From Candidatus Hodarchaeota archaeon (GTDB lineage Archaea; Asgardarchaeota; Heimdallarchaeia; Hodarchaeales; Hodarchaeaceae), in the NCBI GenBank assembly GCA_016840305.1, contig JAEOSP010000174.1, forward strand, positions 1-9,112: DNA of 9,112 bases. The letters run 5' to 3'. Below, piece after piece: positions 3,093 to 9,112 of the stretch. How positions within the stretch are numbered: position 1 is the stretch's first letter; every line of letters begins with the position of its first letter. The notes below the pieces were generated by a model, which saw nothing but the letters and a program-made list of their open reading frames with translations, searched no databases and had not been told where the DNA came from. A program made the position numbers and the translations under genes.

Positions 3093-4313
3093 TCATTTAA
3101 GACTAATATGTTTATCGACACCCTCACCTTCAGTAAGGATTTTTTCACCAGCAAGTCTTACAAGAGCGTCTAATTTCTTAATATTATAGGTTTTCTTCCA
3201 GTTTGGATTACTTTTACTTAAAATTATTCCTAAAGCTGCCAATCTCACGGGTTTCGATGTATTGGATTTTTGAAGCGTTTTCAAATTATCAAGCAGAAAT
3301 GTGACTGCCATTTCATCGTTTGATTGAACCTTCTTGGTGACACTTTTGGGTAAGAATTTCGGTTCAGGAACGATGGATAATATTTTTCCTTTCCTTTTAG
3401 GAGTGAATAATGGTGATTTACTTCTTTCAAGCAGAGCAGCTAACGATTTATAGCCATATTTTACCTTCCATTGAGGTTCGATCTCCGATAAAGTTATACC
3501 AAGCTGACTTGCCAAAATATCTCCATCAGTAGTCATAGGGGTTTTCTGGATTGCTTTTACAAGCAATTCACTAATTTCCTCTGTAGTTTTCGTAGTCGTT
3601 TTAGCTATAGACTTTGAAACGACTTTAGTTTTAACCTGAGAGCTTTTTTTATCCTTAATTTTTTTAGGTTCACGTAAAAACTTCTGTAAATATTTTTCAG
3701 TTAGTTCTATTGTTTCATCTGCAAACTGACGGAGATCAGTGGATGTAGTTTTCGGTGGGCCATGAACCAAACGAACTATGACTCCAGATTGTTTTGCTAT
3801 TTCCACTGAAGGAATGAAATCCCTATCGCCCGCGACTAATACAATTAGACTAACCTGTTGGGAGGTAGCTAAATGAACCATTTGTACAGCTAGTTGAACA
3901 TCAACGCGTTTCTGTTCTTTTACAGTAATTGGTTTTTTACAATGAGGACAATCAGTTATTCGGTCTACAACATCACCGAGAATAACTTCAAACCTTGGCA
4001 AGATGCGAATACCATCATGAAAACTTTGACGATGATTATCTTTACCATCAAAGTAATAAGTTCGAAGACGATAAGCAGGTTGACACACTTCATCACTCAA
4101 GGCAGTTAAGTCCACGTCGAGTGATCCAAATAATCTTCTGATATAATTCCAATAACTACCATCGAAAAGAACGGCAGCTATAGGAGGAAAAGTATTATAC
4201 ATGGCAGTAGGGTATTTTTGAATCAAGATATGATCCCTTCCGTATTTAAGATGCCCATAAACCTGAAAATTTGGTGGTTGTGTGAAAGAAATGAATACTA
4301 GATCTAGTTTCAT
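3093..4313 (-). CDS. NYN-domain (PIN-like) ribonuclease with two C-terminal LOTUS/OST-HTH-like domains
   Basis: This is a probable RNA-cleaving or RNA-binding protein of 406 residues. The NYN/LabA-like PIN-fold domain covers about residues 44-212. It has a first acidic residue D51 in AAVLFDGSYWNYIRR, a second at D138 in KRVDVQLAVQM, and a third group D163/D165 in LVAGDRDFIPSVEIAK, so the acidic site is complete. A CPHC pair (C122, C125) just before the second motif could be half of a zinc site. A lysine-rich linker runs from about 214 to 243. The first helical domain, 244-316, has the LOTUS signature (EISELLVKAIQ, then SQLGITLSEIEPQWKVKYGYKSLAALLE). The second, about 334-406, is more divergent (LAALGIILSKSNPNWKKTYNIKKLDALV). 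NYN plus LOTUS domains recalls eukaryotic MARF1 and some bacterial proteins. No Shine-Dalgarno precedes ATG 4313; Met38 at 4202 would remove an N-terminal extension and is a credible alternative start. Confidence 0.85.
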   Translation of the reverse strand: MKLDLVFISFTQPPNFQVYGHLKYGRDHILIQKYPTAMYNTFPPIAAVLFDGSYWNYIRRLFGSLDVDLTALSDEVCQPAYRLRTYYFDGKDNHRQSFHDGIRILPRFEVILGDVVDRITDCPHCKKPITVKEQKRVDVQLAVQMVHLATSQQVSLIVLVAGDRDFIPSVEIAKQSGVIVRLVHGPPKTTSTDLRQFADETIELTEKYLQKFLREPKKIKDKKSSQVKTKVVSKSIAKTTTKTTEEISELLVKAIQKTPMTTDGDILASQLGITLSEIEPQWKVKYGYKSLAALLERSKSPLFTPKRKGKILSIVPEPKFLPKSVTKKVQSNDEMAVTFLLDNLKTLQKSNTSKPVRLAALGIILSKSNPNWKKTYNIKKLDALVRLAGEKILTEGEGVDKHISLK

Positions 4314-4735: not shown

Positions 4736-6874
4736 TTAGAAAAGGTCTTCATTGTCGATAAGTAGATTCAAATATTCTTTCAGCTTATCCGAGGTTTCGT
4801 CTTTCTTTTGTTCATGTTTTATGATAACTTGTGTTTCTGAAATTTCCTTAAATCGCAAGGCGGCTCTTATTGAAGCATAGACAATCTTGCTAGCAAATTT
4901 AACTGATCCCTCTGATTCTATAGGAATTTGCAATGCTTCTTTCAATAATTTTTCAAGCTGTTGCTCTGATATCATTTCAGAAATGTGTGCCTGTCCAATG
5001 GGAAATCCTCGTTGAGTAAAACTAAGGATAAATCCTTTTTTTACAGATTCTAGATTAAAAGCAACTGATTCACTATCTGGAAGAAAGAGATCGTTTCCAC
5101 TGGTTTCTAACTCAATTGGAATAATATATTCAACCAAATCCGTTCTAACTCCAGTTTCACTTCGAACTGTTTTTGTAGTGACATCTAAAGTAGAGCTGAT
5201 TTTTTTGGCTTTTAATTGCCTTATTGATGCATAGATTATCTTAGCTGCGAAATGCATTGAAGAAATACCATCTTCAAAAACGCCAAGACTCATAAGATTC
5301 TTTTCATAGGCTAGTAAGTAAAGGATTTCTTCTTCAGTTGCTTCAGACGAAATTAAAGAACTTCCCAACATTTCCTTTTGCCCCATACTGCTCCGTTGCA
5401 GAAAAGAAATAAGAGTATTAAGGCCATCATCAACTAAATTTACTTTAAAGCCCATACTTTGAGTATTTGGTAATGCAATAATCCCTTCGTCGCTTTCTAT
5501 CTCAACTGGAACATCTAACTTTGTATAATCTACTAATTTCTTTTTTACTTCTTTCTTTTTCTTCGGAACTACTTCTTTAGAAGGTGGGAAATAATTTTGA
5601 ACTATTTCTCTCATACTTAATTGTACTTTTTCAGTTGCTAATACTAGACATGTAACGATATCTTCTTCATTTAATCCTCCCCTAAGAATCACAGAAAATA
5701 ATTCTAGAAGTTTATTCTTATCAATGGTTCTACACTTTTCTTTCCCTTGAGATTTCTCAATAAACGGCAAGTACTTTAAGAATATATCACTTACTAAAGG
5801 TACAGACATTCCAGAAGTAACACCCATTTCGAATAATTGGTTCCATCCGCTATTTACGAGTTCATTTGCTTCTTCAATGCTGATACGATAGAATTCAACT
5901 AGGTGATTTATTTCAACCGAACTAGTAGGAGTTGTTGATTGAGGTTCAGCTTCACTAGAAATCTTCTTAAGATGTGCTGAAGTGTCTATTGTTTCTATTT
6001 CATCTGAATTTGGAACCCTGTGGATTAAGGTTGTTTCCGAAATTGATTCTTCACTTGCTGCGTTACCAAGAAAGACACTTGATTCGTCAGAAACATCATT
6101 AAATGTTTTCAAAGACTGTTTCATTATTAAACGTAATTTCTCTGCAGCAGCAGTATCTCCATCCATTTCTTTTGGTATTAGTCGTGGTTGTGCTCTTGGA
6201 ACTGCTGGTTCCCTTTTTTCTGAAAGTGTCATAGCAATTTCATGATGTTCCTCTATTTCTCCAATCAATCGACCGTTTACAAAGTCGCTTTGAGCAAGCT
6301 CTGGAATAGAAAGTTCAAAAATCCGCCCAAACGTGTCAATAACAGTTTCAGGTCTATAAATTGTTGTTCTAAAAAATTTTATTTGATTTGAGGACTCAAT
6401 TTGGAATTGTTCCTTTAATTGCTCATGAATTGATTCATAATTGGGGCTGTTCCTAATTAAATCATTTTTGTGTAAGAAAATAAATATATTGGCGGCGGGA
6501 GAGAATTTCTTCAATTTCTCTAAGCAGGAACTGAAATATTGAATTGCGTTATTTCGGGAGGTTTTATTTGCAACATCAATCAAGAAAATAAATATTTTGA
6601 CATTGCTAAATACAAATGGACTAAATCCCTTTAGGAAACGTTTTAAAAAGATCTTTTGTCCACCCAGATCAACTATAGTGACTGGTATGTCATTCACAGC
6701 GAGAGACAATCTCTCGTAATTGATTGTAGCTGAAAGTTTATTCACGTCTTCGGTTTGCTGTTTTAAAAAGAAGATTCGCTTTACTGCAGTTTTCCCAGCC
6801 TCACTTAATCCAGCAATTAAAATTTTATATCCGAGTTGTTGAGAAATTTCAGACTCCGAAACCCATCGCGACAT
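4736..6874 (-). CDS. Rag/Gtr-like GTPase with a long C-terminal region carrying a duplicated domain, 712 aa
   Basis: Residues 15-190 form a Ras-superfamily GTPase domain. G1 is GLSEAGKT (22-29), the switch I Thr is T50 in ATINYER, G3 is DLGGQ (69-73), G4 is HKND (135-138) and G5 is probably TTI (170-172). His in place of Asn in G4, the ATI switch and the GGQ motif place it with Rag/Gtr GTPases, not Ras or Rab. There is no C-terminal cysteine for a lipid anchor. A low-complexity acidic, Ser/Thr-rich linker (about 200-320) follows, then a helical region (322-430), then a lysine-rich hinge (434-447). Two copies of an unrecognised domain come next, at 455-560 and 585-679, both ending in F-A-(A/S)-K-I-(I/V)-YASIR and a K-x-IS end. 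The usual Rag roadblock tail is not evident. Eukaryotic Rags are about 300-400 residues, so this is a greatly extended form. It is divergent from the 7107-8003 GTPase, its possible partner. TTTAATTTA on the minus strand near 6902-6910 is a possible TATA box; no Shine-Dalgarno is evident. Confidence 0.85.
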   Translation of the reverse strand: MSRWVSESEISQQLGYKILIAGLSEAGKTAVKRIFFLKQQTEDVNKLSATINYERLSLAVNDIPVTIVDLGGQKIFLKRFLKGFSPFVFSNVKIFIFLIDVANKTSRNNAIQYFSSCLEKLKKFSPAANIFIFLHKNDLIRNSPNYESIHEQLKEQFQIESSNQIKFFRTTIYRPETVIDTFGRIFELSIPELAQSDFVNGRLIGEIEEHHEIAMTLSEKREPAVPRAQPRLIPKEMDGDTAAAEKLRLIMKQSLKTFNDVSDESSVFLGNAASEESISETTLIHRVPNSDEIETIDTSAHLKKISSEAEPQSTTPTSSVEINHLVEFYRISIEEANELVNSGWNQLFEMGVTSGMSVPLVSDIFLKYLPFIEKSQGKEKCRTIDKNKLLELFSVILRGGLNEEDIVTCLVLATEKVQLSMREIVQNYFPPSKEVVPKKKKEVKKKLVDYTKLDVPVEIESDEGIIALPNTQSMGFKVNLVDDGLNTLISFLQRSSMGQKEMLGSSLISSEATEEEILYLLAYEKNLMSLGVFEDGISSMHFAAKIIYASIRQLKAKKISSTLDVTTKTVRSETGVRTDLVEYIIPIELETSGNDLFLPDSESVAFNLESVKKGFILSFTQRGFPIGQAHISEMISEQQLEKLLKEALQIPIESEGSVKFASKIVYASIRAALRFKEISETQVIIKHEQKKDETSDKLKEYLNLLIDNEDLF
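4838..5122 (-). repeat. Second copy of the domain duplicated in the long GTPase
   Basis: Encodes residues 585-679. It starts IPIELETSGNDLFLPDSESV and ends KFASKIVYASIRAALRFKEIS in pattern, matching the first copy at both ends, with about 11 fewer residues in the middle. It is a protein-level repeat; the DNA has diverged. Confidence 0.7.
5195..5512 (-). repeat. First copy of the domain duplicated in the long GTPase
   Basis: Encodes residues 455-560. It starts VPVEIESDEGIIALPNTQSM, with FKVNLVDDGL, ISFLQRSSMGQ and, at the end, HFAAKIIYASIRQLKAKKIS. The order of strands then helices matches the second copy at residues 585-679. Confidence 0.7.
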
Positions 6875-7016
6875 CGCTCTATTTATCCTATGTATCAGAC
6901 GTAAATTAAAGATCAGAGAAGAAGATTATTATTGAATATGTTCATATATATCTTTGAATATCATTTTAATAAGGCATCTAAATCATTCGAAATTTATTGG
7001 GAGAATCTATTTATAA

Positions 7017-7041
7017 TTATTGATATTATTTTTATCAATAA
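7017..7041. repeat. 9-bp inverted repeat in the divergent promoter region
   Basis: TTATTGATA (7017-7025) and TATCAATAA (7033-7041) are exact inverse complements with a 7-bp spacer, so half-site centres are 16 bp apart. It is a candidate operator about 22 bp upstream of the proposed TATA box at 7063. Such AT-rich sequence makes chance repeats fairly common, so this is tentative. Confidence 0.4.
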
Positions 7042-7096
7042 ATAATAATAACCAATTTCCTGTATAGTAATAATTCACTTGAATTCAAAAAATGTT

Positions 7097-7102
7097 GTGA
7101 TC
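7097..7102 (+). promoter_or_regulatory. Shine-Dalgarno site for the RagA-like GTPase gene
   Basis: GTGATC matches the last six bases of the archaeal consensus GGAGGTGATC and ends 4 nt before ATG 7107, which supports that start. Confidence 0.55.
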
Positions 7103-7106
7103 ATAA

Positions 7107-8003
7107 ATGCAACAGACTAATCAGCCTAGTAAAGTATTATTTATGGGACTGGGAGCAAGTGGTAAAAGTAGCATTAGATCGATTGTATTTGAAGGTAAAT
7201 CTTTAGAAGATGTTAAGGATTATCATGCGACTATTAATTATACTCGTTCAACAAAAAATATCATTGATGCGCCTTTTCAAATATTCGATTGTGGTGGTCA
7301 AGAGAGTTTTATCTCTGTTTTTGTGGGAGAGCAAGCTGAATTCATTTTTAGTGAGGTCGCGGTTCTTATCTGGGTAATAGATGTGTCAAATTTCGACTCT
7401 GTTTCTACTTCAAGATTTTATTTTAATCTGGCCCAAAAAAAACTAGTAGAATACTCCAAAGGAGCAATTATCTTCTGTCTTCTCCACAAAATGGATTTAT
7501 TAATACCTGATATGAAAGAAAAAGTTACTGAAACAATTTTCTCGTACTTTGCTCCGATGGATGGAATCGACATTAATTATCGAAGTACATCAATATTTGA
7601 TCAATCCATCTTTAATGTAGTAGGGGAGATAGTTCAAGCTCTTATTCTTAGAAGTACGAAAGCTCAATCAGTATCAGGGGCAATTGAAGAATTTATTAAA
7701 TCACATGCTGAAATGGCAGGTGTAGCTATCTACACAGATGATGGTTTACCTGTTTTCGAAGAAGGAGATACTGATAGAATAATCTTACCAGCCAATCTCT
7801 GGTTGGCGTCTTATGATAGGTTATCTGAGGAATATGAACGTGAAGAGCTGCAAACAATACTTGAGACAAAAGATTATGTTTTCGTATTCCGCAATATTAA
7901 ATCTGAACTTCTCCTTACGGGAATTGCTCAAAAAGTGGCTCCATTACAATATGTTTTGGTAAAAATGGAACAGTTAGCAAAGATAGTGAATCAACTGTTA
8001 TAA
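7107..8003 (+). CDS. RagA/Gtr1-like GTPase with C-terminal roadblock-like domain, 298 aa
   Basis: Residues 8-182 are a Rag-type GTPase domain close to eukaryotic RagA/Gtr1. G1 is GLGASGKS (14-21) followed by SIRSIVF, where RagA has SMRSIIF. Switch I is ATIN (T42), G3 is FDCGGQESF (DCGGQ 61-65), and G4 is HKMD (127-130) within IIFCLLHKMDL, nearly the RagA wording. G5 is TSI (161-163) followed by FDQSIFN. Residues 188-298 look like a roadblock/LC7 domain: helix SGAIEEFIKSH, strand GVAIYTDDGLPVF, a central helix, strands YVFVFRN and ELLLTGIA, and a final helix. Eukaryotic Rags have the same two-part plan and dimerise through the roadblock part; their length of a little over 300 residues is also similar. 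In eukaryotes they report amino-acid supply to TORC1. No TOR pathway is known to me in archaea, so the role here is open. There is no lipid-anchor cysteine. The gene is divergent from the long Rag-like GTPase and convergent with the tubulin-like gene. Confidence 0.9.
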   Translation: MQQTNQPSKVLFMGLGASGKSSIRSIVFEGKSLEDVKDYHATINYTRSTKNIIDAPFQIFDCGGQESFISVFVGEQAEFIFSEVAVLIWVIDVSNFDSVSTSRFYFNLAQKKLVEYSKGAIIFCLLHKMDLLIPDMKEKVTETIFSYFAPMDGIDINYRSTSIFDQSIFNVVGEIVQALILRSTKAQSVSGAIEEFIKSHAEMAGVAIYTDDGLPVFEEGDTDRIILPANLWLASYDRLSEEYEREELQTILETKDYVFVFRNIKSELLLTGIAQKVAPLQYVLVKMEQLAKIVNQLL

Positions 8004-8113: not shown

Positions 8114-9112
8114 TTATTTATTATTTCCTTCTTTCTTATCTTCATCGGTCATATATTTGCCGAATAAATTCTGAATATCATCCATCGCTATCTGTAATTC
8201 TTCATGTGGAATACCTTTTGATCTTTCAAACCAGCCTCTCTTAATTGTGGACTTTGAATCATTATGATATGCAATCAGATTAGAAGCATCATTGAAAACA
8301 TCCCGTAATTCTGGAATACGAGGTAAACCAAAAAGGAGAAGTAAAGAAGATTTTTCCATTTCTGGATCATCATATGAAACAAATGATGGTTGAATGGATC
8401 CTCCTTTCACTAAATAGGGAGCTAAAATCTTTTTCAAGTAAGCAGAATACTCAAGTTTCGAAATATCTTTATTTCCAGTCAATATGGAGTATACTGAACC
8501 CGCAGCAGGTTTTTTATCAATATCCGTTAGGGAACAATGATTAACCGTATATCTAGCTGCTAAAGCCATTTGCTTATCCATTCGTCCATATTCTGGCAAA
8601 AAATACATATCTTCAAAGAAACACGGAACTACAACAGGATCTAACCTTCGAGAATAGTCAGCTAAGTCAGTTGTTGGCATAACCTTTTTACCATATTCTT
8701 GAATGCTTGGAGAAAGAATTGATTCTATTGTACGTAGAGCTAGCGGATTTACTAACTGTGTAAACTCTACTCCAGCATTTGTTCGTAATTTTTCATCTTT
8801 TGTTGTTAAATTTGAGGAATCTATACCAAGTGATTGATCTAATAAACCATTAGCTCGGCCTTCTCTCCACTCCATTACTCGTTTCAACATAGTTTTATTT
8901 GATAACAAGAAAATTAAATTTGGACCTTTTTTTGGTTCTAATTGATTTCTTAATAGAGTTGATAAGGACCATATTGAGTTTATTGCTTCAGAAGACTGGT
9001 TTTCAAATGGTAGGACACCAAATACATAAATGAATATTCTACGTTCATCAGAAAAATGTTTATGTAACAGTTCAACAAGAGCTGGGGTTCCCCCACAACC
9101 AGTACCACCACC
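8114..9112 (-). CDS. Tubulin/FtsZ-superfamily GTPase (CetZ- or FtsZ-like), 5' end outside window
   Basis: This is a cytomotive GTPase that would form filaments by GTP-dependent self-assembly. The frame is open to the window edge, giving 332 visible residues; the TTG at 8908 is internal and not the start. Visible residues 1-10 read GGGTGCGGTP, the T4 glycine-rich loop that is the family signature. It is followed by a helix, the strand IFIYVFGVLPF, and a helix with SSEAINSIWSLSTLLRN before LIFLLSNKTM. This is the order seen in FtsZ and CetZ (TxPF...L..L....D.LI...N). NPLALRTIE and TTDLADYSRRL (about 147-157) fit the end of the GTPase domain and the T7 region, and the last 170 residues would be the C-terminal domain. 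About 330 residues after T4 is longer than the usual 280-300. The tail ends in a charged stretch and has no clear FtsZ C-terminal peptide. It is divergent from standard FtsZ; 'GGTP' and 'VLPF' lean towards CetZ or FtsZ-like groups. T1-T3 lie outside the window. Confidence 0.85.
   Translation of the reverse strand, partial: GGGTGCGGTPALVELLHKHFSDERRIFIYVFGVLPFENQSSEAINSIWSLSTLLRNQLEPKKGPNLIFLLSNKTMLKRVMEWREGRANGLLDQSLGIDSSNLTTKDEKLRTNAGVEFTQLVNPLALRTIESILSPSIQEYGKKVMPTTDLADYSRRLDPVVVPCFFEDMYFLPEYGRMDKQMALAARYTVNHCSLTDIDKKPAAGSVYSILTGNKDISKLEYSAYLKKILAPYLVKGGSIQPSFVSYDDPEMEKSSLLLLFGLPRIPELRDVFNDASNLIAYHNDSKSTIKRGWFERSKGIPHEELQIAMDDIQNLFGKYMTDEDKKEGNNK

Follow-up and report, generated by a model that had tools for sequence, protein, structure and literature searches.

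Eukaryotic growth control depends centrally on Rag GTPases and on longin-type GTPase-activating proteins (GAPs) such as Folliculin (FLCN). Known Rags run to 307-336 residues for RagA/Gtr1 chains and 314-404 for RagC/Gtr2 chains, G-domain constructs of 181-196 residues being left out of this comparison. Asgard archaea also have Rag-like GTPases, among them LokiRagO (8yl2), LokiRagM (8zla) and the proteins of Lokiarchaeota MKD1, whose neighbouring Rag-like genes are predicted to pair through their roadblocks (PMC10933270, section 7). The Rag fusions listed in that section are to longin or roadblock domains only. Longin GAPs of the FLCN, NPRL2 and SMCR8 type are described as one group (PMC8213707), with Arg164 of FLCN given as the catalytic finger (PMC8107286, PMC7464330). 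A further point of comparison is the FtsZl1 operons, in which a tubulin-superfamily gene is linked to a distinct GTPase and which have been proposed as membrane-remodelling systems (PMC2875224). The DNA compared here with these systems is a stretch of 9,112 nucleotides from a Candidatus Hodarchaeota archaeon, referred to below in its entirety as the window.

The gene at the centre of this analysis, F0, occupies positions 4736-6874 on the minus strand and encodes 712 residues. A sequence-only reading had given these coordinates and this length correctly; its strand needed correction to minus, the plus strand of the same interval containing 53 stops. It had also recognised a Rag-type G domain, which is borne out by a Pfam Gtr1_RagA match over residues 17-193 (E 2.8e-31) and by a RagA-type fold. 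This domain spans residues 1-205 (6260..6874, minus strand) and its nucleotide motifs are intact, including the DxGGQ glutamine; every letter of GLSEAGKT, DLGGQ and HKND is at least 90% conserved, and HKND lies in G4 (residues 135-138) as first read. F0 shares the RagA-type G domain and intact motifs with RagA/Gtr1 and the Asgard Rag-like GTPases, and MKD1 also has neighbouring Rag-like genes, as the window does (PMC10933270). In contrast to these proteins, F0 is twice as long, a comparison that the first reading had drawn correctly, and carries a GatB/GatE-type helical domain (H) and a doubled domain (D1 and D2) where a roadblock would be expected. Against a roadblock profile, H, D1 and D2 score 10.0, 10.6 and 12.2, versus 29.3 for the partner Rag described below. 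Because its G domain is Rag-type but the C-terminal roadblock is absent, F0 is a Rag-type GTPase by its G domain and not a canonical Rag. While the G domain belongs to a known kind, an architecture like that of the whole protein was not found in the literature searched (open-licence PMC). The claim that F0 matches no known architecture holds for that literature; within the tail, the helical part is recognisable.

The tail had been described as some 500 unrecognised residues comprising an acidic linker, a helical region, a lysine hinge and a doubled domain, and each of these parts could be delimited on the minus strand. The linker (residues 206-316, 5927..6259) is acidic and mostly disordered, with a mean net charge of -7.6 over residues 216-316 (range -12 to -1 in 38 proteins), a predicted helix at 241-255 and short conserved motifs containing D240, L244, L247 and M251, then L269, A272, A273, E275, E276, E280 and L283. 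H follows (residues 317-431, 5582..5926), with helices predicted between residues 318 and 428. By both fold and profile it resembles the 115-residue helical domain of the amidotransferase subunits GatB and GatE (the Pfam GatB_Yqey region), although the Pfam GatB_Yqey model itself (PF02637) does not match it. The likeness extends over GatB residues 307-416 of 491, which is the helical part and not the GatB tail after it. F0 differs from GatB/GatE in having neither the catalytic cradle nor any part corresponding to what follows the helical domain, and in being fused to a GTPase; a Pfam scan of F0 returned GTPase families only, and the amidotransferase catalytic domain is not among them. The lysine-rich hinge (residues 432-447, 5534..5581) is basic on average (+4.1, range -4 to 9 in 38 proteins). 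D1 (residues 448-562, 5189..5533) and D2 (residues 576-682, 4829..5149) are copies of one alpha/beta domain, for which five strands followed by two helices are predicted, and form a true internal repeat (hhalign of D1 against D2: probability 97.9, E 6.2e-13, 98 columns). An acidic C-terminal stretch (4739..4828), with a helix predicted at 696-707, ends the protein. "Unrecognised" is thus right for D1 and D2, which have no known family, and wrong for H; in F0, a helical domain of the GatB/GatE type stands in a new context, together with a duplicated domain of no known family. As a separate observation, GatB_Yqey scored over its cut-off in one of seven F0 genomes searched versus 121 of 148 genomes of the phylum, and many of the genomes listed without it belong to the window's class.

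An assembly fusion, the origin that would have undone the first reading, is ruled out by at least 38 full-length clusters of 710-755 aa and by occurrence in 8 of 227 genomes; the F0 architecture is conserved. Scoring in the two protein searches was limited to the candidates with the most words in common with the query (7,989 and 7,995), and their lists are not exhaustive; the search with residues 205-712 as query gave at least 42 clusters including F0 itself, the 38 with the same layout and four shorter ones. Among the 47 matches listed for the tail search, 21 are 710-735 aa long, 16 (500-572 aa with a G domain, 62-66% query coverage) were taken to have a single D domain, and 10 without a listed Pfam domain, on contigs of 1.3-8.5 kb, were taken as truncated. 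There is also a third form of about 560 aa with one D domain and a clade of its own: 14 one-D rows group together (100/100) in a tree whose root is unresolved and whose one-D group, assigned by length, wrongly took in two fragments (P0014 and P0041). Source labels of the relatives are mostly Hodarchaeales, Hodarchaeota, Kariarchaeaceae or Promethearchaeota, with single records labelled Heimdallarchaeota, Hermodarchaeota and Thorarchaeota, and the four F0 contigs with named genomes are Hodarchaeota or Hodarchaeum. One tail profile found 9 of 58 genomes of the window's class, in G047 through no more than a short match where a contig ends; a second found 10 of the 227 phylum genomes, eight with the F0 family and two with GatE-like genes. 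The G domain is also present in G047, cut by the contig end, and in G044, where a run of N interrupts the gene, which is therefore no example of a tail-less F0. One 101-kb contig bears two F0 paralogues. A viral origin was discarded: no close relative was found in IMG/VR, PHROGs gave 0 hits, and BFVD gave none at E <=0.001.

The most informative part of the analysis is the context of F0, which lay beyond the view of the sequence-only reading: a second, divergently transcribed Rag that has a roadblock, receptors with FLCN-like tails at many of the related loci, and a tubulin-like neighbour. The second Rag, F1 (298 aa, 7107..8003, plus strand), has a RagA-type G domain at residues 9-196 (Pfam Gtr1_RagA, E 2.3e-38) and, at about residues 197-275 (7695..7931), a roadblock domain assigned by hhalign against 19 roadblock sequences (probability 58.3, E 9.7e-5, score 29.3; 50 shuffles reached at most 14.9). 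The Pfam roadblock model is absent among the matches of 12 F1 members. F0 and F1 are transcribed away from each other across 232 bases (6875..7106), in which a sigma-70 promoter scan, with a model not suited to archaea, scored below the shuffle mean. This second RagA-type GTPase of about 300 aa is the next, divergent gene at all 14 loci with a readable 5' flank (the window, L001, L002, L020, L022, L024-L029, L030, L031 and L103), which, as loci of related genomes, are not independent; the gene maps were built from open reading frames and purpose-made profiles. Two more F0 genes, in L003 and the second of L030, are cut by contig ends. This gene pairing, constant at 14 of 14 readable loci, is what suggests an F0-F1 heterodimer.

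The second element of the context is a set of large surface-type proteins. A protein of this kind with an FLCN-like tail is encoded near the Rag pair at 8 of the 14 loci. At seven of them (L020, L022, L024, L026-L029) an open reading frame of 2,120-3,075 aa, in some cases truncated where the fetched stretch ends, directly adjoins the pair; at L025 a 400-aa relative lies farther along. The fetched stretches of the other six (window, L001, L002, L030, L031, L103) contain no tail gene. Pfam scans of three long receptor frames gave a laminin-G-like domain with DUF2341 in one and no clear domain in two. By eye, a single hydrophobic stretch precedes a conserved end of about 200 residues, an arrangement that would place the large part at the surface and the end domain in the cytosol. 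At E 1e-10, 29 of 227 genomes contain this end domain, which often lies within frames of more than 1,000 aa.

By profile comparison, the end domain shares homology with a set of FLCN-like proteins from Hodarchaeal genomes, each about 440 aa long (hhalign probability 69.2, E 4.4e-5, score 40.0; 50 shuffles at most 20.1). Pfam Folliculin scored over its cut-off on the FLCN-like proteins in 6 of 8 genomes and in 0 of 14 control genomes, and two of three such proteins passed when scanned singly. Single tails all fell below the cut-off (E 0.004-0.1 in five of six, no match in the sixth), and in an alignment scan one of four matched (E 0.2). The motif [EDQ]ARGG occurs in all 16 aligned tails, which are profile matches cut at a start motif and not a random sample, and ARG[KR] in all four FLCN-like proteins; the L025 tail has TARGG, and three weaker relatives (L095:5049-8054, L096:5748-8729, L097:8384-11560) lack the ARG motif. 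Arg164 of human FLCN aligns to this motif in both profiles, with scores (16.0 and 22.4) below the best of 100 shuffles (20.8 and 26.3). PDB searches returned nothing with the FLCN-like profile; with the tail profile the matches were confined to kinases and chemotaxis proteins, none of them better than E 0.28. Compared with FLCN, NPRL2 and SMCR8, the receptor tails share homology with the FLCN-like proteins and carry an arginine that may correspond to Arg164, but are joined to large surface-type proteins, and their GAP role is putative. The literature searched (open-licence PMC) showed no case of Rag pairs with FLCN-type tails beside them. Receptors also stand beside F1-type Rags at two loci without F0, L104 and L108. 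Other members of these families were seen in passing: the FLCN-like family of about 440 aa, presumably cytosolic, is represented by L099:1204-2520, L100:956-2284, L101:1095-2378 and L102:8192-9511, with a roadblock-domain frame (L100:121-612) immediately ahead of the FLCN-like gene in G003; in L096, L097 and L098, long surface-type frames with FLCN-like tails stand in tandem, two or three to an array, in which a third member without the ARG motif might be a non-catalytic partner; and G040 has a single open frame of 8,821 aa.

The third element is a gene of the tubulin/FtsZ superfamily (8114..9112, minus strand), which runs off the window end with 332 aa visible, orthologues having 441-448 aa. 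The fragment matches the family profile at E 9.3e-223 and Pfam Tubulin at E 0.0075, and the full orthologue in L002 matches Pfam Tubulin at E 8.5e-19; against NCBIfam ftsZ the protein scores 39.4 bits with a cut-off of 295.2, and its assignment is to the superfamily only. The gene follows F1 in the window, L002 and L030, and F0 in L025, the loci here called type A. Beyond it, two genes that belong to no family, about 1,140 and 312 aa long, follow in L002, L025 and L030; the window stops earlier.

Our leading reading, a tentative one that we place somewhat short of an even chance, is that F0 and F1 form a two-Rag switch controlled by the FLCN-tailed surface proteins, with the F0 tail as its output or assembly arm and the tubulin-like protein as a likely output. 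F0 would be a working RagA-class GTPase and one half of the switch, and F1, encoded head to head, the other half through its roadblock; this is supported because the F0 motifs are intact, the fold is RagA-type, and F1 is divergent at every readable locus and carries a roadblock, with the neighbouring Rag-like genes of MKD1 as a precedent (PMC10933270). Single-pass surface proteins would control the pair at the cell membrane, their FLCN-type longin inner tail probably acting as a GTPase-activating or docking module that uses the conserved arginine. Such control draws its support from the tail gene near eight of the loci, the FLCN homology, the ARG motif and the receptors beside F1-type Rags at L104 and L108. 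Where a Rag usually has its roadblock, F0 has the flexible acidic linker and the GatB/GatE-type domain followed by either one D domain or two; together these parts would make the output or assembly arm, and at loci like the window the adjacent tubulin-like protein would be the likely output since its gene adjoins the pair there and at L002, L025 and L030. Against this reading, the functional links all come from gene neighbourhood at loci related by descent, the window itself has no receptor gene and five other loci likewise show none in the stretches fetched, and F1 relatives occur without F0 at L104, L105 and L106. F0 also lacks the roadblock through which Rags usually pair, and the FLCN-type assignment is weakened by the subthreshold single tails, the human FLCN score within shuffles and the three relatives without the motif.

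The same gene linkage would serve a membrane-traffic or surface-organising module, in which the Rag pair recruits surface proteins and filament proteins to particular membrane sites, for positioning and not for signal reception. The FtsZl1 operons, likewise a tubulin-superfamily gene linked to a GTPase, offer a precedent (PMC2875224), but the vWA and OmpA partners given for them there are not seen here, where the GTPases are Rags and the tubulin-like neighbour is placed by superfamily only; we consider this account unlikely. A still less likely one is a self-contained switch whose tail folds onto its own G domain as inhibitor or GAP, the neighbours being separate systems with a common promoter region. 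The long linker with its conserved short motifs, the basic hinge and the greater conservation of the G domain (mean pairwise identity over 38 full-length proteins 78%, versus 53% for H, 56% for D1 and 53% for D2, with 34% for the linker) would suit it, but the head-to-head partner is retained at all 14 readable loci, and the full-length structure model (pTM 0.36) predicts no reliable tail-G contact. Eukaryotic Rags act in amino-acid sensing, and this role and the likeness of H to GatB/GatE might suggest a sensor in which the Rag nucleotide state is set by the binding of tRNA, or of a complex that handles it, to H and perhaps also to D1/D2, but H, D1 and D2 are acidic on average (-2.6, -7.2 and -3.8), the match is limited to the helical part of GatB and no tRNA-handling gene was noticed among the scanned neighbours at the mapped loci; this is the least probable of these accounts.

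A bolder version of the two-Rag switch, which we regard as doubtful, is that Hodarchaeal receptors signal through Rags: the FLCN-type longin tail of adhesion-type giants, with its arginine finger, would switch the two-Rag module, and the long Rag, by way of its GatB-type arm and D domains, would relay the signal to a tubulin-like cytoskeleton or other effectors. If true, FLCN-Rag control is older than lysosomes and TORC1 and had its beginning at the cell surface, and a receptor-Rag system of this kind, once shown, would exceed a variant of a known Rag type. The window's archaeon belongs to a lineage regarded as nearest to eukaryotes, and the linkage of its long Rag to a second Rag and, in relatives, often to giant surface proteins with FLCN-like inner tails hints that signalling at the surface may predate eukaryotes. 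Because a single neighbourhood brings together Rag genes, a roadblock and surface-type proteins with FLCN-like domains, the origin of the Rag-FLCN wiring becomes testable with few purified proteins.

Several other genes were observed near the loci. F3, of about 340 aa and without a Pfam or PDB match, lies near the Rag pair or F1 at several of them (L020:12237-13295, L025:5127-7277, L028:12734-13753); its N-terminus looks longin-like by eye only, and profiles gave no support for a longin protein. The stretch L104:3072-16021 combines F3 with a Rag of the partner type and a receptor of 3,597 aa that has an FLCN-like tail, but has no long Rag, and L108 is similar. The window also encodes a NYN-domain protein (3093-4313, E 4.6e-14), which also matches OST-HTH/LOTUS weakly (E 0.044), and a 179-aa protein (2341-2880) of no clear family that appears internally repeated by eye. 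DRTGG-domain, acyl-CoA ligase-like and acetyl-CoA hydrolase/GNAT genes adjoin the type B cluster at four loci (L020:13407-18664, L022, L027 and L028).
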